From Chloroflexota bacterium (lineage in GTDB: Bacteria; Chloroflexota; Limnocylindria; Limnocylindrales; CSP1-4), in contig JAJYNP010000170.1 in NCBI GenBank assembly GCA_021786265.1, positions 1-5,841 of the forward strand: 5,841 bases of DNA, read 5' to 3'. The position numbers and the translations under genes were made by a program. The notes beneath the pieces are model-generated. The model ran no database searches. It saw nothing but the letters and a program-made list of their open reading frames with translations, and was not told the origin of the DNA. Positions 10 to 5,841 of the stretch are shown piece after piece; within the stretch, counting starts at the first letter, position 1; each line of letters starts with the position of its first letter.

Positions 10-363
10 CTACTGGGCCAGCGTGTCCACGTCGATGATCTCGTTGATCCACTTCAACGGATCGGCGGAGGCTGCGCTGAGCGGGTTCTTGAGGTTCTCT
101 CGCGTCTGGCCGAGCATCCCCATCACGGTCTGGTGGCGGCGCTGCAGGGAGACGTAGTAGGGGTTGAGGACGAGGTCGTTGGCGATCGCGTCGGAGAGGC
201 GGCGGTTGATCTCGCGTTCGTTGGCGAGTTGCGTGCGCAGCGTCTCGCGTTGGGTCTGGAGGTCCTTGATGAGTCGGATCATGCGGTCCTGCTTGCCGGC
301 GTTGAACGCGTCGACGCGGGCGGCTGTCACTTTGTCGGCCTTAGCGGCCTTCTTCTTCGCCAT
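10..363 (-). CDS. Basic coiled-coil protein of unknown function (117 aa)
   Basis: Last gene of the minus-strand cluster. The ATG at 363 is preceded by a purine-rich GAGGGG ribosome binding site (372-377) with an 8-nt spacer, and the gene ends in TAG at 10-12. The N-terminus is a short lysine/alanine tail (MAKKKAAKADK). Residues about 24-62 are rich in Arg, Glu, Gln and Leu and look like a continuous amphipathic helix or coiled coil. The C-terminal third is less charged (NPLSAASADPLKWINEIID). There is no signal peptide, membrane segment or cysteine. The start lies 23 bp inside the end of the ATPase gene, so the two are probably translated together. I do not recognise a family. The lysine-rich tail plus helix would suit a nucleic-acid-binding or virion-associated protein, but that is only inference. 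The gene call is firm and the function unknown. Confidence 0.85.
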   Translation of the reverse strand: MAKKKAAKADKVTAARVDAFNAGKQDRMIRLIKDLQTQRETLRTQLANEREINRRLSDAIANDLVLNPYYVSLQRRHQTVMGMLGQTRENLKNPLSAASADPLKWINEIIDVDTLAQ

Positions 364-1120
364 TTCGGTTTCCCCTCTTCTTGTAGCTCGGTGTGGTGAT
401 CATAAGCGGCGCCGACGCGTCGCGGCCGACGACGATCCAGTGGTGCTTCTCGAGTCCTCGCAGGGCGCCGCGGATCTCGGCCTTGGGGCGTCCGAGAATG
501 TCCGCGAGTCCGTTGACGACGTCGATGTTGCGGTTGCGGCTGACGACGACCCAGCTGGCCTGGCGCCCCGCCATCGGGGTGACCCAGGAGGGCTGCTGGT
601 AGGAGCCGACGAAGGAGATGCCGCGGTCCCGGGCCGCGACGAGGATCTTGTCGACGGTGCCGCGCAGATCGAAGGGCTGGCGGGGGTCGGTCAGCACGAG
701 CAGCTCGTCGGCGTAGATCGTCCAGCCGCCCATCTCGTAGGCGTCATAGAGGCACTGGTTGATCGTGTCGACGAGCTTGTCGGTGTCCTGGTGGGTGCGG
801 GCCCGGTTGCCGATCACGTAGCGGCTGGGGCGGCCCTCCTCGTCGTTCTTCGCGCAGGCTTCGCCCATCGACTTATGGCCCGGCCACTTCTCGACGCGGG
901 GGAAGCCGAACTCCTCGAGGCTGGTGTCGCCGCCTTTGACGTCAAGGATGAGGGCGTACTTGCGGCACGCTTCGATCAGCCCGCCGGCGAAGACGGTCTT
1001 ACCCTCGCCGGTGGGGGCGATGATCGACACGTGCTCGCCGGGGCGCCAGAGGTCCTTGAAGCGGGGCAGGAACTCCGTGTCCCAGTCGAGGGCCTCGACT
1101 TCGAGCCGGTCCGAGGACAC
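341..1120 (-). CDS. FtsK/HerA-superfamily P-loop ATPase, probable genome-packaging ATPase
   Basis: A 259-residue ATPase. The Walker A motif is APTGEGKT (residues 35-42, Lys41). Walker B is the hydrophobic run WTIYADE (133-139), with Asp138 and the probable catalytic Glu139. The segment ISFVGSYQQPSWVTP (168-182) matches the hydrophobic strand followed by Gln and Pro that HerA/FtsK ATPases carry after Walker B. These proteins form rings that pump DNA. Members of this size package genomes in tailless phages with internal membranes (PRD1 P9-like, A32-like). No membrane segment is visible, unlike FtsK itself or Zot-type proteins. The start is GTG at 1120, two bases after the stop of the upstream gene and without a clear Shine-Dalgarno site, so translational coupling is likely. 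It ends in TAA at 341-343, inside the next gene. The superfamily call is firm. The packaging role is inferred from size and neighbours; a plasmid- or conjugation-type DNA translocase is the alternative. Confidence 0.87.
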   Translation of the reverse strand: MSSDRLEVEALDWDTEFLPRFKDLWRPGEHVSIIAPTGEGKTVFAGGLIEACRKYALILDVKGGDTSLEEFGFPRVEKWPGHKSMGEACAKNDEEGRPSRYVIGNRARTHQDTDKLVDTINQCLYDAYEMGGWTIYADELLVLTDPRQPFDLRGTVDKILVAARDRGISFVGSYQQPSWVTPMAGRQASWVVVSRNRNIDVVNGLADILGRPKAEIRGALRGLEKHHWIVVGRDASAPLMITTPSYKKRGNRNGEEEGR

Positions 1121-1122
1121 GG

Positions 1123-1665
1123 CTAGACGATCGGAGTGTCCGAGGCCGCGGGTGCCGTCGAACCCTGGGGGACCGCGACGTCGGCTGATACTGCGGCCCC
1201 GGCGGAGTCGTCGGCCGACTCGGTGGAGGTCGAGGTAGCCGCCGGGGCGACGTCGTCAACGCCGGGGACCGCAGAAGGGGCGGGGGCAGGAGTGTCATCG
1301 GCCGTGCCAGCCGGCTCGTCTGCCCCCGCGAGCTCAGAGGAGTCCTCGCTCGAGGAGCCGCTGGTAGTCGACGGTCGGGCCGCCGACGTCGACCAGATCA
1401 CGCTCCCGGGGCTCGACGACGTCAAGGTGAAGTGTGTCGCTGACGTTTGAGTAGTGGACGCTGATTCGTCCGTCAGATCCGTCGCACTCGTATCCTCCGC
1501 AGGGGCAGGCGAAGTATCCGGCTGCGGTGACAGGTCTGGCGTCCATTCCGTCTCTCCTCCTCTATCGACCTTCGAGACGACTTCGAGGGCCTCGTCGCGG
1601 TCGGCCTCGCTGAACCAGCTGGTCTGGCGTACCAGGTGGGCGAGGATCTCGCTAAGCGTTTTCAT
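1123..1665 (-). CDS. Ser/Thr/Ala/Pro-rich protein with helical N-terminus (180 aa), contains a nested gene
   Basis: The ATG at 1665 has a strong AAGGAG ribosome binding site (1672-1677) with a 6-nt spacer, and it overlaps the end of the upstream gene by 14 bp. Residues 1-34 (MKTLSEILAHLVRQTSWFSE and onward) look like a normal helical domain. From about residue 40 to the end the protein is almost only Ser, Thr, Ala, Pro, Asp and Gly and should be disordered. Residues about 41-111 are encoded by the same DNA as the 70-aa nested gene in another frame. The Ser/Thr richness there is what results when frequent GTC-GAC codons are read out of register. The TAG at 1123-1125 lies two bases before the ATPase start, which supports translation through to the end. 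No family is recognised. The disordered tail might be a linker or a protein-protein interaction segment. A two-frameshift artefact is possible but less simple. Confidence 0.72.
   Translation of the reverse strand: MKTLSEILAHLVRQTSWFSEADRDEALEVVSKVDRGGETEWTPDLSPQPDTSPAPAEDTSATDLTDESASTTQTSATHFTLTSSSPGSVIWSTSAARPSTTSGSSSEDSSELAGADEPAGTADDTPAPAPSAVPGVDDVAPAATSTSTESADDSAGAAVSADVAVPQGSTAPAASDTPIV
1334..1546 (-). CDS. Nested overlapping gene: small Cys-motif protein (70 aa)
   Basis: This frame lies wholly inside the 180-aa gene, on the same strand and out of register with it. It has its own ATG at 1546, a near-ideal GGAGGA ribosome binding site (1555-1560) with an 8-nt spacer, and an in-frame TAG overlapping the start of that site, so no longer start is possible. 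The product has the varied composition of a folded protein, with Tyr, Val, Leu, His and Asp spread along it. A F-x-C-x-C-x4-C motif (FACPCGGYEC, residues 12-21) suggests a metal knuckle. It ends in VDYQRLLERGLL. Third-position GC is about three quarters in both frames by my count and does not separate them. The second-position composition looks protein-like in this frame and unusually C-rich in the host frame. The function is unknown. The same Cys spacing recurs in the 136-aa protein at 3585-3995. Confidence 0.66.
   Translation of the reverse strand: MDARPVTAAGYFACPCGGYECDGSDGRISVHYSNVSDTLHLDVVEPRERDLVDVGGPTVDYQRLLERGLL
1547..1560 (-). promoter_or_regulatory. Strong ribosome binding site of the nested gene
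   Basis: On the minus strand the bases before the ATG at 1546 read GGAGGAGAGACGGA. GGAGGA matches the 16S anti-Shine-Dalgarno core and the spacer is 8 nt. It lies within the coding sequence of the 180-aa protein, which has no apparent use for it, so it is the main evidence that the nested frame is translated. Confidence 0.7.
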
Positions 1666-3327: not shown

Positions 3328-3588
3328 ATGAGCGACGAGCCAGCGAGGACTGAGGCCCCCCTTCGCGAGTGGACCGAGACGGCGGTCTATATCCTCACCT
3401 CGGCGGCGGCCGCCTACGCGTTGCTGCACCAGGCCGGGATAGAGATCAACTGGAACCCGATCACGTCACGCGTGAAACGACTGCGGGCTCGGGTTTCCGA
3501 GACTCCGTGGCTGAACCCGAAGCAGTGGCGGCGCATGGTGACCGAGGTTCTGCTCGAGGCGTGGAACATCGTGGAGGAGAAGCCGTGA
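3328..3588 (+). CDS. Small single-span membrane protein (86 aa)
   Basis: First gene of the plus-strand cluster, starting at ATG 3328. A polar N-terminus (MSDEPARTEAPLREW) precedes one transmembrane segment at about residues 17-35 (TETAVYILTSAAAAYALL). After it come a basic stretch (SRVKRLRARV, 47-56) and an amphipathic, Trp-containing helix (PKQWRRMVTEVLLEAWNIVE). The positive side after the membrane segment suggests that the C-terminus stays in the cytoplasm or virion interior. The size and single span also occur in holins, but there is no lysis gene beside it and the neighbours look structural. A virion membrane or vertex-anchoring protein is equally possible. The stop overlaps the next gene by four bases. 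Confidence 0.83.
   Translation: MSDEPARTEAPLREWTETAVYILTSAAAAYALLHQAGIEINWNPITSRVKRLRARVSETPWLNPKQWRRMVTEVLLEAWNIVEEKP
3573..3579 (+). promoter_or_regulatory. Ribosome binding site deciding the GTG start at 3585
   Basis: GGAGGAG lies 5 nt before GTG 3585 and inside the end of the upstream gene. The frame is open further upstream to 3369, but that part reads in a shadow frame of the membrane protein. This site shows that the true start is the GTG, giving a GTGA overlap with the upstream TGA. Confidence 0.8.
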
Positions 3589-3995
3589 CCAAGCCCGTGG
3601 GTGACGCAATATATAGACGCATGGAGGCCGACGCGATTGTGCTCTCCAAGGCCTACGGCTTCGAGGCGAGCCCGTACCTCCAGCCCGGTCAGCCTCGCTG
3701 GCGCCTGGGTCCGCGCTGGATCGAGTTCGAGTGCGGGTGCCGCGCCGAGCGGTGCCGGACCCTCATCGATCCCAAGCCCTGGGACCCGATCATCTTCGAG
3801 GGGCTGCCCGAGCAGGCGGTCTACGACCACGTCTGTGACGCGCACCAGCTCGGCATGTGGGAGAACCGGATCCGGTTCTGGATCTTTCGCGATCACGACA
3901 AGGAGACCGCCGAGAACCGACGCTTCACCAAGGTCCGGGGGTATAGTGACTTTCAGGACTGGCACCGCCGGCGCCGGCCGCTACTGATGGGGTGA
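3585..3995 (+). CDS. Cys-rich probable zinc-binding protein (136 aa)
   Basis: Starts at GTG 3585 with a strong ribosome binding site and a four-base overlap with the membrane-protein gene. The protein carries F-x-C-x-C-x4-C (FECGCRAERC, Cys50, Cys52, Cys57), and later CDAH (Cys84, His87); together these could bind one zinc ion. It is rich in Trp, Arg and aromatic residues (RIRFWIFRDHD, YSDFQDWHRRRRP) and has a very basic end. There is no membrane segment or signal peptide. An alternative ATG at 3621 (residue 13) follows an AT-rich patch (AATATATAG, 3608-3616) that stands out from its GC-rich surroundings. No family is recognised. A compact zinc-containing nucleic-acid-binding or regulatory protein is plausible. 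Its Cys spacing matches that of the nested 70-aa protein on the other strand. Confidence 0.83.
   Translation: MTKPVGDAIYRRMEADAIVLSKAYGFEASPYLQPGQPRWRLGPRWIEFECGCRAERCRTLIDPKPWDPIIFEGLPEQAVYDHVCDAHQLGMWENRIRFWIFRDHDKETAENRRFTKVRGYSDFQDWHRRRRPLLMG
3942..3947 (+). promoter_or_regulatory. Weak candidate -10 box before the paralog and fibre genes
   Basis: TATAGT in the sequence GGGGTATAGTGAC is close to the -10 consensus and would start transcription about 45 nt before the first paralog. No -35 box is seen at the usual distance. The site lies in coding sequence, so it may be chance. Confidence 0.2.
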
Positions 3996-3997
3996 CC

Positions 3998-4522
3998 ATG
4001 TCTGACACCGATACCGACAACGACCCCGGCTTCGAGGTTAAGGCGGCGTTCGACTTCGCAGTCGAGATCGGTGGCAAGTTGGACGAGAGCATCGCCGCTC
4101 AGAAACGACTGCTGCGACAGCTGAGCGAGGCGACGCCCATCATGTACCGACCGACCGCCTCGGCGGTCTGTCCCACGCCGAGCGCGTCGTTCGTGCTCGA
4201 CCTGGGCACGCCGAGCCAGGGCACGTTCTGGGAGGTGCGAAAGGTCGTCGTCGGCGGAATGGACTTCACCACCGCCGCCGCCGGTACGGCGGGCCTGTAC
4301 CTGTCGGCGAGTCCGAGCATATTCGGGTCGGGCCTCAACAACGCCGAGGACTACGCGTCGAGCCTGCCAAGCGTCGGGTACTACGGTACCGGGGCGCTCT
4401 ACGTGCGCCCGAGCGAGTACCTGTTCCTCGTGGTCTTCAACGCCACGGCCGGACAAACCTACGTCGCTAACGCGTTCTGTCGCGTCTACAACGACTCGGT
4501 CGTCGAGGACTGGATCAGCTAG
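3998..4522 (+). CDS. Beta-rich probable virion protein, paralog 1 (174 aa)
   Basis: I prefer ATG 3998, two bases after the upstream stop, because GGGGTGA (3989-3995) is well placed as a ribosome binding site. GTG 3992 would add two residues and overlap by four bases. Residues 1-50 are acidic and then helical (AAFDFAVEIGGKLDESIAAQ), possibly a coiled coil for oligomerisation or anchoring. Residues 53-174 are rich in Val, Thr, Gly and Tyr with alternating patterns typical of a beta sandwich (ASFVLDLGTPSQGTFWEV, ALYVRPSEYLFLVV). This domain is about 72% identical without gaps to the whole C-terminal domain of the next gene (88 of 122 by my count). The family is not recognised. Position before a fibre gene suggests a spike, vertex or receptor-binding subunit. 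A single-jelly-roll capsid protein is an alternative that structure prediction could test. Confidence 0.85.
   Translation: MSDTDTDNDPGFEVKAAFDFAVEIGGKLDESIAAQKRLLRQLSEATPIMYRPTASAVCPTPSASFVLDLGTPSQGTFWEVRKVVVGGMDFTTAAAGTAGLYLSASPSIFGSGLNNAEDYASSLPSVGYYGTGALYVRPSEYLFLVVFNATAGQTYVANAFCRVYNDSVVEDWIS
4154..4239 (+). repeat. 86-bp perfect direct repeat, copy 1
   Basis: Identical base for base to 4582-4667 (offset 428). It encodes residues TASAVCPTPSASF to about WEVR in the first paralog. Identity includes every synonymous position, while the rest of the paralogous pair is clearly diverged. Confidence 0.95.
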
Positions 4523-4950
4523 TGCGCTCGACGCCGCTCGCGCAGCGGTACCGCCCGCCGGTCATCTCGATCGTGGACCTCACCGCCTCGGCGGTCTGTC
4601 CCACGCCGAGCGCGTCGTTCGTGCTCGACCTGGGCACGCCGAGCCAGGGCACGTTCTGGGAGGTGCGCCGTATCGTCACCGGGGGACTCGACGTGACGAC
4701 CCTCGCCGACGGATCGGCGGGACTCTACCTCTCGGGATCGCCGACGGTCAACGGCGCCGGCCTCAACAACGCCGAGGACTGGGCGCCCTTCCTGCCGAGC
4801 ATCAAGCGCTACGGCCCGGGGGCGCTCTACGTTCGTTCGAGCGAGCACGTGTTCCTCGTCGTCTCGGGCGCCACCGCCGGACAGACCTACGTCTCGCACG
4901 CCCTCTGTCGCGTCTACACCACCGCAAGCCAACCAGACTGGATCAGCTAA
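4522..4950 (+). CDS. Beta-rich probable virion protein, paralog 2 (142 aa)
   Basis: Starts at GTG 4522, which shares its first base with the upstream TAG (TAGTG). No good Shine-Dalgarno site is present (GAGGA at 4505-4509 is 12 nt away), so it is probably translated by re-initiation. A short N-terminus of 20 residues (MRSTPLAQRYRPPVISIVDL) replaces the acidic, helical extension of paralog 1. The beta domain at 21-142 aligns with paralog 1 without a gap to the shared end DWIS. The differences cluster in what are likely loops (GTAG to SAG, GYYGTG to KRYGPG, FNATAG to SGATAG) and near the C-terminus (NDSVVE to TTASQP). Two such subunits made in a fixed order could form a hetero-oligomer, with one carrying the extension that attaches it to the particle. 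The molecular function is not known. Confidence 0.85.
   Translation: MRSTPLAQRYRPPVISIVDLTASAVCPTPSASFVLDLGTPSQGTFWEVRRIVTGGLDVTTLADGSAGLYLSGSPTVNGAGLNNAEDWAPFLPSIKRYGPGALYVRSSEHVFLVVSGATAGQTYVSHALCRVYTTASQPDWIS
4582..4667 (+). repeat. 86-bp perfect direct repeat, copy 2
   Basis: Second copy of the segment at 4154-4239. The flanking bases differ on both sides (G4153 against C4581; A4240 against C4668), so the identity ends sharply. Confidence 0.95.
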
Positions 4951-5841
4951 TGCCATTCCCACAGCCGGGCACCGGCGGTATAGACCAACTAACCGGCGAC
5001 GTACTAGCCGGGCCGGGAACCGGCTCCCAGGCCGCGACCCTCGAGGCGACCGCCAACGTCGAGAGCGTGATCGCCGCGAACACGACCGTCGCGGGGGCCG
5101 TGCAAAAAACAGCCACCCCCGGCGGGGACCTCGCCGGCACGGGGAGCACCTACAGCACGCCCGAGCTCATCGCGGTCGGCACCGCCGGCACCGTCGGGGA
5201 CGCGAGTCACTACCCCGTCGTCACGACTGACACGAAAGGGCGGGTCACCGGCATGGTCGCGACCGCCGTTCCCGGGGGGACGCCCGCCACGACCGTCACG
5301 GGTCCGGACGTGTTCGGCGCGGCTGCGGTCGTCGGCACGAGCACGCTCTACGCCCGCGAGGACCACGACCACGGACTCCCCGCTGCGCCGGCGGTTCCCA
5401 CGCCCGCCACGACCGTCACGGGTCCGGACGTGTTCGGCGCGGCTGCTGTAGTAGGTACCGGTACCGAGTACGCCCGCATCGATCACGACCACGGACTGCC
5501 CGCCGCGCCCGCCGATATTCCGCTCTCCACCGTGACCACGGCAGGCGACCTCATCGTCGGTACGGGAGCAGGAACAGTAGGCAGGCTCGGGATTGGGGCG
5601 AATGGTGACGTGCTAACCGTGGCGGCAGGGGCGCTCGGCTATGCCGCGCCGTCCACGGGCGTGGACCTGTTGCAGTTCTTCCAATCAACCCTGCCCTCTA
5701 GCCAGAGCTGGACCTCTGTCGCCTACGGCAACGGGACGTTCGTCGCGGTGTCGGCTGGCCCCTCGACCGCCGCCGCGTACTCCACCAACGGTGGGGTGAC
5801 CTGGACGGCGGCAACGCTGCCCTCTATCCAGAGCTGGATCT
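4950..5841 (+). CDS. Fibre-like adhesion protein with DHDHG and beta-propeller-type repeats, partial (no stop in window)
   Basis: ATG 4950 shares its A with the upstream TAA (TAATG). The frame stays open to the window edge, so at least 297 residues are present and the C-terminus is missing. In order: a Gly/Ala/Thr-rich N-terminus; YPVVTTDTKGRVTG (88-101), a motif common in phage fibres; two 40-residue repeats at 111-150 and 151-190, each with TPATTVTGPDVFGAA and a DHDHGLP end; TTAGDLIVGTGAGTVGRLG (196-214), another motif widespread in phage structural proteins; and then SWTSVAYGNGTFVAVSAG (253-270) with YSTNGGVTW (277-285), typical of BNR/Kelch-like propeller blades. A second blade starts at residue 290 (TLPSIQSW), giving a 42-residue period. 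The likely role is a receptor-binding fibre or spike at the particle surface. The protein family is inferred from motifs, not from an alignment. Confidence 0.88.
   Translation, partial: MPFPQPGTGGIDQLTGDVLAGPGTGSQAATLEATANVESVIAANTTVAGAVQKTATPGGDLAGTGSTYSTPELIAVGTAGTVGDASHYPVVTTDTKGRVTGMVATAVPGGTPATTVTGPDVFGAAAVVGTSTLYAREDHDHGLPAAPAVPTPATTVTGPDVFGAAAVVGTGTEYARIDHDHGLPAAPADIPLSTVTTAGDLIVGTGAGTVGRLGIGANGDVLTVAAGALGYAAPSTGVDLLQFFQSTLPSSQSWTSVAYGNGTFVAVSAGPSTAAAYSTNGGVTWTAATLPSIQSWI
5280..5326 (+). repeat. 47-bp perfect direct repeat in the fibre gene, copy 1 (120-bp unit)
   Basis: Identical to 5400-5446 at an offset of 120 bp (40 codons). It is the start of the first DHDHG repeat. The remainder of the unit is similar in protein but differs at many bases. 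Confidence 0.93.
5400..5446 (+). repeat. 47-bp perfect direct repeat in the fibre gene, copy 2
   Basis: Second copy of 5280-5326. The two 40-residue units differ mainly at TSTLYARED against TGTEYARID before the shared HDHGLP. Confidence 0.93.
5691..5841 (+). repeat. Start of a 126-bp (42-residue) propeller-like repeat array, cut by the window edge
   Basis: CTGCCCTCTA-GCCAGAGCTGGA at 5691-5712 recurs almost exactly from 5817 (CTGCCCTCTA-TCCAGAGCTGGA). This gives a 126-bp period of blades reading LPSxQSW...YGNGTFVAV...YSTNGGVTW. Only one full unit is visible, and the number of blades cannot be known from here. Confidence 0.75.

Follow-up and report, generated by a model that had tools for sequence, protein, structure and literature searches.

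Does the DNA just upstream of a phage packaging ATPase gene encode two proteins at once and, if so, which of the two reading frames was there first? The question is raised by a window of 5,841 nucleotides (the whole stretch of DNA analyzed here), in which an earlier note made from the sequence had pointed out a 70-codon open reading frame (ORF) lying inside a 180-codon ORF that is read in another frame. The minus strand of the window carries a block of ORFs of 132 aa, 98 aa, 321 aa, and 180 aa, the packaging ATPase, and 117 aa, while a further ORF block is found on the plus strand. The features discussed below are:

341..1120, minus strand: tectivirus-type DNA-packaging ATPase, 259 aa (phrog_2666, tblastn to phages)
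1118..1120, minus strand: GTG start of the packaging ATPase, two bases past the long-gene stop (1123-1125)
1123..1665, minus strand: long gene, 180 codons (residues 1-40, conserved module; 41-111, overlap; 112-180, tail)
1334..1546, minus strand: nested gene, 70 codons, ATG to TGA, with a Cys motif in its N-terminal half
1337..1399, minus strand: conserved C-terminal core DLVDVxGxxxDYQRLLExGLL (alignments with L002 and P0006, see below)
1414..1545, minus strand: hypervariable block, long-protein residues 41-84, corresponding to the N-terminal half of the nested protein
1555..1560, minus strand: GGAGGA Shine-Dalgarno sequence of the nested gene (8 nt spacing, -11.8)
1562..1564, minus strand: in-frame TAG before the nested ATG, with no counterpart at that place in L002
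1652..2617, minus strand: 321-aa upstream gene, overlapping the start of the long gene by 14 nt

A tectivirus-like context for the locus

Tectiviruses are membrane-containing phages. A packaging ATPase of the FtsK-HerA type, one of the characters by which Tectiviridae are recognized, is encoded in the window. Since this ATPase matches phrog_2666 (named terminase large subunit; E=9.9e-17) and, by tblastn, 14 Rhodococcus, Streptomyces, and Microbacterium phage records at 25-32% identity, with three of the four fetched records classified as Tectiviridae, we assign the window to a putative distant and poorly known tectivirus-like phage. Its host is probably an actinobacterium. Family scans of the window identified neither a capsid gene nor a polymerase gene.

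Actinobacterial tectiviruses (Rhodococcus phage Toil, Streptomyces phage WheeHeim, and Microbacterium phage Badulia) share the homologous packaging ATPase, with 25-32% identity, but differ in having no match to the long protein and none to the nested protein better than E=3. Among 50,697 phage records, the long protein has no tblastn match at E<=0.1 and the nested protein has six, all with E>=3; blastn of the whole window against phages returned nothing, as did searches of plasmids with positions 1123-2617 (blastn) and with the 321-aa protein (tblastn). IMG/VR contains no homologue of the nested or the long protein and, when queried with the ATPase, 321-aa, and 131-aa proteins, yielded one distant locus, L001.

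Several other elements came to light in the course of these searches. The 19.3-kb "plasmid" pSCO2 of Streptomyces collinus (L018, NC_021986.1) may, despite its filing as a plasmid, be a tectivirus-like element, as it encodes an ATPase 41.6% identical to that of the window together with a GH25 lysozyme. The 321-aa protein has no match in pSCO2 and, going by the annotation only, the gene before its ATPase overlaps the ATPase start, so that the nested/long pair does not lie directly upstream there. Related ATPases are also encoded on four contigs of 18-20 kb (L013, L014, L016, and L017) from genomes of the same order as the genome that contains L002; judged from their length, these may be near-complete tectivirus-like genomes. 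Elsewhere in the window, the adjacent 174- and 142-aa genes (3998-4522 and 4522-4950) have in common a block of 86 identical bases (starting at 4154 and at 4582), differ outside it, as after a recent duplication or gene conversion, and both match one single place in L002. The long open ORF that follows (4950-5840) contains two near-identical "TPATTVTGPDVFGAAAVVG" repeats, and short parts of it match L013 and L002 with 65-79% identity.

Two reading frames in one stretch

The description of the locus in the earlier note holds in the window. The 70-codon ORF (1334-1546) lies wholly inside the 180-codon ORF (1123-1665) on the same strand with an offset of two bases, such that nested codon positions 1, 2, and 3 fall on long-frame positions 3, 1, and 2. 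Its ATG is preceded at 8 nt by the GGAGGA that had been noticed (1555-1560) and at 18 nt by the in-frame TAG (1562-1564), and the CxCx4C motif spans residues 14-21 of its product. The long frame does run without a stop up to the TAG at 1123-1125, two bases before the GTG of the ATPase (1118-1120). Its tail (residues 112-180), which reaches the ATPase start, is rich in Ala, Asp, Pro, Ser, and Thr. Within the overlap, the Ser/Thr richness attributed to the long frame amounts to 26% Ser and 19% Thr, and the ordinary protein-like composition attributed to the nested frame is reflected in 36% of order-promoting residues versus 11% in the long frame.

Conservation of the nested arrangement

Using a profile of the long protein with patterns in its N-terminus, we found a relative, L002, on contig JAJZBS010000147.1, a contig of low coverage (3.9-fold according to its title) from an Actinomycetes metagenome-assembled genome. 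The long ORF of L002 (3765-4241, 158 aa) is 46% identical to that of the window in the matched part and contains a nested ORF (3893-4069, 58 aa) with the frame offset seen in the window. The nested start falls, in both genomes, on an identical Glu-Trp pair of the long frame (GAATGG) and the nested stop on an identical Ser-Glu pair (TCTGAG). The two nested proteins are 69% identical over their last 26 residues and have the core DLVDVxGxxxDYQRLLExGLL in common. The overprinting arrangement is therefore kept in the one relative whose DNA includes the long gene, and the case that the earlier note set against a nested gene, a broken 70-codon frame beside a preserved long frame, was not seen there.

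A database search with the nested protein of the window alone returned nothing. With a two-sequence nested profile (window and L002), the search returned P0006, a 58-aa protein called as a gene on four public contigs and known as protein, which carries the nested core. Between the N-terminal halves of the nested proteins (window versus L002 and P0006), no convincing alignment was obtained beyond the initial Met-Asp. Two of the features seen in the window are not conserved: the nearest in-frame stop before the nested ATG of L002 is 114 nt upstream, and the CxCx4C motif (CPCGGYEC in the window) contrasts with CPYC in L002 and P0006. Five further database relatives, P0001-P0005, are known from the long frame; in P0005, the Ser-Ser-Glu that provides the nested stop is missing, and a nested gene there, if any, therefore ends differently.

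Genome searches around the genome of L002 gave no second close relative among 397 genomes of its order, 3 of its family, 395 of its class, and 396 of its phylum, sets that overlap and in most genomes of which the top six candidates were scored. No tblastn match to the long or nested protein of the window was found in L013-L017 (E<=0.01), nor any match to the nested profile at E<=1 in the four genomes behind them. Other sequence, or none, is present between the 321-aa homologue and the ATPase in L013, L014, and L015, distant contigs though nearer than the actinobacterial tectiviruses, which were inspected in this region; L016 and L017 were covered by tblastn only. With the nested protein of L002 as query, L017 gave one match (E=0.009), which was dropped, as it spans unrelated ORFs.

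Start signals and chance openness of the two frames

The strength of the start signals was estimated as duplex energies with an anti-Shine-Dalgarno octamer. Of 12 sites scored in the window, the nested ATG has the strongest Shine-Dalgarno duplex (-11.8), followed by that of the 136-aa gene at 3585 (-9.3), and the nested start of L002 is likewise the best of 12 sites (-9.0; next, -6.6), two of which are alternative starts of one gene, with some genes left out. For comparison, the 5% level of random sites is -6.7 in the window and -6.9 in L002. In both genomes, the inner gene thus has an initiation signal of its own, as looked for in cases of overprinting. The start of the long gene has values of -8.8 in the window and a weak -2.1 in L002, and a Shine-Dalgarno sequence is absent from the ATPase start in both (-3.2 and +0.3). 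The long-gene stop adjoins the ATPase start in each case, as TAG, two bases, and GTG in the window and as TAATG in L002.

When the long protein was re-encoded at random with the codon usage of the genome, the nested frame was left open in 42% of 60,000 recodings for the window (51% for L002), so that the length of the nested ORF is no evidence for a gene. An ATG, an open frame, and a stop at the observed places were obtained in 0.8% (window) and 0.6% (L002) of the recodings. Conversely, recoding of the nested protein leaves the long frame open by chance in 34% (window) and 82% (L002) of trials, and the openness of this frame through the overlap is thus weak evidence as well. It is open in L002 and in all five database relatives (165-179 aa), where openness is ascertained because P0001-P0005 were found as called long-frame proteins. 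The long frame is better supported by two other points: it is the frame used for coding to either side of the overlap, and its end lies at the ATPase start in the window as well as in L002.

Codon usage in the overlap

Scored for codon usage (training set, 20 other ORFs of the window and L002 contigs), the overlap favors the nested frame over the long frame, with +2.0 versus -18.0 bits in the window and +5.7 versus -4.2 bits in L002. As control slices, we used 1964 (window) and 2212 (L002) segments that overlap, are non-independent, and come nearly all from the 20 training ORFs; none scores as well as the nested ORF in its +2 frame (maxima of -24.9 and -18.5), and this frame is open in 963 of the 1964. 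The long frame of the window scores below all 1964 slices in the overlap, and 30 of 2212 are as low as that of L002. With synonymous choice alone, the nested frame reaches +0.22 (window) and +0.50 (L002) per codon, compared to -0.13 and +0.06 for the long frame, while values between -0.14 and -0.79 were obtained for the +2 frames of the 20 control ORFs, none of which attains the nested score.

On both sides of the overlap and in both genomes, the long frame has the highest score on its strand, with 12.6 (window) and 5.6 (L002) bits before the overlap and 3.1 and 2.3 bits after it; the other two frames of that strand score -30 or lower in these flanks. Judging from codon usage, the nested frame appears to be the better-adapted coding frame in the overlap, and the long frame there would be a low-complexity, Ser/Thr-rich linker.

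Substitution patterns

The test of synonymous-site constraint that had been suggested for both frames was applied to the 26 codons conserved between the window and L002. In the long frame, silent change is reduced: in this single pair, 12 of 13 fourfold sites are identical, compared to 230 of 405 in five control genes (g86 left out; p=0.008) and 10 of 27 in the flanks of the long gene itself (p=0.001). Changes at long-frame third positions (3/26) are fewer than in the controls (344/994, p=0.009), and nested third positions, which are long-frame position 2, also show 3 changes in 26 (p=0.009 versus the same controls), so that the nested frame alone does not explain the pattern. The 12 substitutions over these codons are distributed as 6, 3, and 3 on long-frame positions 1, 2, and 3. 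This pattern speaks against free evolution of third positions, be it in the long or in the nested frame. Dual coding predicts such a pattern, but a frame-blind constraint, such as a conserved DNA element, would give a similar one.

Among P0001-P0004, which are known only as long-frame proteins, the minimal nucleotide changes counted per column without a tree comprise 18 at long-frame position 2 (nested third position) versus 7 at position 1 in the overlap, and 12 versus 17 outside it (p=0.023). The nucleotide differences in the control genes between the window and L002 are 157 at position 2 versus 198 at position 1 (p=0.006 versus 18:7). Pairs of the window with P0001-P0004 were left out of this position test, given the unreliable alignment over residues 41-84. 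The changes between the nested proteins of L002 and P0006 (seven at nested position 1, which is the long-frame third position, three at position 2, and one at both) may indicate a slight lean to changes tolerated by the long frame. Provided that the adjoining bases are kept, long-frame changes at residues 103 (G/A/D), 107 (E/A), and 108 (D/A/G) leave the nested protein unaltered; Lys107 of L002 does not, as it changes Arg to Gln.

A variable block shared by both frames

The long protein of P0001, known as protein, is nearly identical to that of the window except in residues 41-84, where 26 of 37 compared residues differ and 12 gap columns are present. Before the overlap, 2 of 40 residues differ (95% identity, 3 gap columns), and none of 96 differs from residue 85 to the end (100% identity, 3 gap columns). 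Positions 1414-1545 thus form a hypervariable cassette inside both frames, which is replaced relative to P0001. As this block corresponds to the N-terminal half of the nested gene, an exchange within it changes both proteins.

Alternative explanations

Taken together, the observations are, as a whole, best explained by two genes of a tectivirus-like phage that truly overlap, one internal to the other on the same strand, a reading that we consider likely. Two different proteins are very probably read from this single stretch of DNA, and this putative dual coding is the well-supported step of the reading. The view that the nested frame is the constrained one draws support from L002, P0006, codon usage, and the direction of amino-acid changes (18:7 versus 12:17). 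If the long gene alone were real, the nested ORF would be an untranslated by-product of high G+C content; the frequent openness of +2 frames (42-51% of recodings and 963/1964 control slices) and the choice of the long frame by gene callers in P0001-P0005 agree with this. However, the start, stop, and C-terminus of the nested ORF are conserved in L002, P0006 exists, the nested Shine-Dalgarno sequence is the strongest, and the nested codon usage is unmatched by any +2 control slice, which makes this explanation unlikely. We regard as decidedly unlikely the converse situation, in which coding in the overlap is confined to the nested gene, chance alone keeps the long frame open, and the actual upstream gene does not extend through the overlap, for example owing to frameshifting or to little translation. 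It would agree with the poor codon scores that the long frame has in the overlap (in the window, lower than in any of the 1964 control slices; 30/2212 are as low as in L002) and with its chance openness (34% and 82% of nested recodings). Yet coding in both flanks follows the long frame (12.6 and 5.6 bits upstream of the overlap, 3.1 and 2.3 bits downstream), with no stop between these flanks in the window, L002, or P0001-P0005. The tail of the long frame, moreover, shows partial conservation among P0001-P0005 and L002 and, in the window and L002, terminates at the ATPase start, and nested third positions are not free to change (3/26).

The spread of substitutions over codon positions (6/3/3 in the 26 codons) is what could be expected if the conserved 80 bases were a cis-acting DNA or RNA element rather than the end of a protein. 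This is highly improbable, since RNA folding is ordinary in the region (z of -0.18 in the window and +0.97 in L002), the window has no Rfam match at the gathering score, and the long-frame changes at residues 103, 107 (E/A), and 108 would be silent in the nested frame if the adjoining bases are kept. Finally, two compensating frameshift errors of assembly or sequencing, at about 1546 and 1334, could make one gene look like two, as the earlier note had cautioned. Nothing that would favor such errors was found, and they are very unlikely, to the point of being negligible, because L002, an independent assembly, has the nested arrangement with the identical offset, start, and stop, and the nested protein is also found in P0006.

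Possible function and comparison with known gene pairs

The nested protein of the window has no match to a Pfam, PHROG, or solved-structure family at the thresholds used, and AlphaFold2 predicted no fold for it (pLDDT of 41.5). Over the Cys motif and the C-terminal part, P0006 (E=0.0071, 17 bits) and the L002 form (E=0.056, 14.1 bits) show a weak likeness to Pfam ATE_N, the N-terminus of arginyl-tRNA-protein transferase; both are below the Pfam gathering score of 27, and the window's protein has no match to this family. We take the likeness as a lead only and, as a guess, the nested product could be a small metal-binding accessory or assembly protein.

As in the pair described here, a short phage gene is fully enclosed by a longer same-strand gene in lambda, where Rz1 is read in the +1 frame within Rz (PMC6139136), and embedded spanin genes of this kind are described there as often missed by gene callers. 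Rz1 is, however, a lipoprotein and Rz has an N-terminal membrane anchor (PMC6139136), and neither signal was seen by inspection in the window pair, which is beside the packaging ATPase, whereas Rz/Rz1 are beside lysis genes. An embedded spanin reading was rejected, as the lipobox [LVI][ASTVI][GAS]C (PMC6139136) does not occur in the nested protein. By inspection, the Cys contexts are YFAC, ACPC, and GYEC in the window and FDNC and CPYC in L002, and residues 1-40 of the long protein have, by eye, no long hydrophobic stretch. A further internal phage overlap with two proteins from one stretch is that of phiX174 E inside D (PMC8227390). The E product there acts in lysis and has a transmembrane domain, and codon usage marks E as the younger frame (PMC8227390); unlike E, the nested frame of the window has the codon usage closer to that of the genome. 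Within the mostly open-access literature on tectiviruses, nested or overprinted phage genes, embedded spanins, and translational coupling, we found no report of this gene pair; neither "overlap" nor "nested" occurs in the main text of PMC6950372.

A model for expression and order of birth

In the model we propose, a single mRNA would carry the 321-aa gene, the long gene, and the packaging ATPase in this order. Ribosomes would start the long gene at 1665, and others would start the nested gene at its own Shine-Dalgarno sequence and ATG (1546) and stop at 1334. Those reading the long frame would end at 1123 and probably re-initiate at the ATPase GTG, which has no Shine-Dalgarno sequence. Termination-reinitiation at overlapping or closely spaced junctions has been described in bacteria and archaea (PMC6728339, PMC10666635). 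From the arrangement of the sequence, we lean slightly towards coupling of the long frame to ATPase translation.

According to PMC8227390, the ancestral frame of an overlap can be recognized by a wider distribution or by a codon usage closer to that of the genome. No relatives with only one of the two genes were found. The codon-usage criterion, applied here via log-odds scores and thus differently from the test in PMC8227390, points to the nested frame as the presumably older one. Two histories had been offered in the earlier note. The one that begins with the nested gene, over which the long frame later expanded, is the better fit, since codon usage in the overlap is that of the genome in the nested frame and less so in the long frame; a disordered tail tolerating a second gene fits less well. 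By a modest balance of probability, the nested gene may be older than the long-frame extension. In this history, the upstream 40-codon module would have lost its stop and extended through an older nested Cys-motif gene to the ATPase start. Stop-codon loss of an upstream gene, with extension past a downstream gene, has been considered a possible route to embedded spanins (PMC6139136). More tentatively, and with the odds rather against the full combination, an older Cys-motif gene could have been overprinted by stop-loss growth, with the long frame kept as a ribosome feeder for the ATPase and a swappable N-terminal half diversifying both proteins.

Public protein databases contain the product of one frame or of the other (long, P0001-P0005; inner, P0006), which would be expected of gene callers that discard nested genes, and a conserved phage gene is therefore half-hidden in them. 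The locus would also provide an example, in double-stranded DNA phages, of an overlap in which the inner gene rather than the outer one looks ancestral, and in which the outer frame has a plausible second role in supplying ribosomes to the next gene. The locus thus appears to contain a nested gene that is real and conserved, in a phage group about which little is known, and offers the unusual hint that, of the two genes, the inner one arose first.
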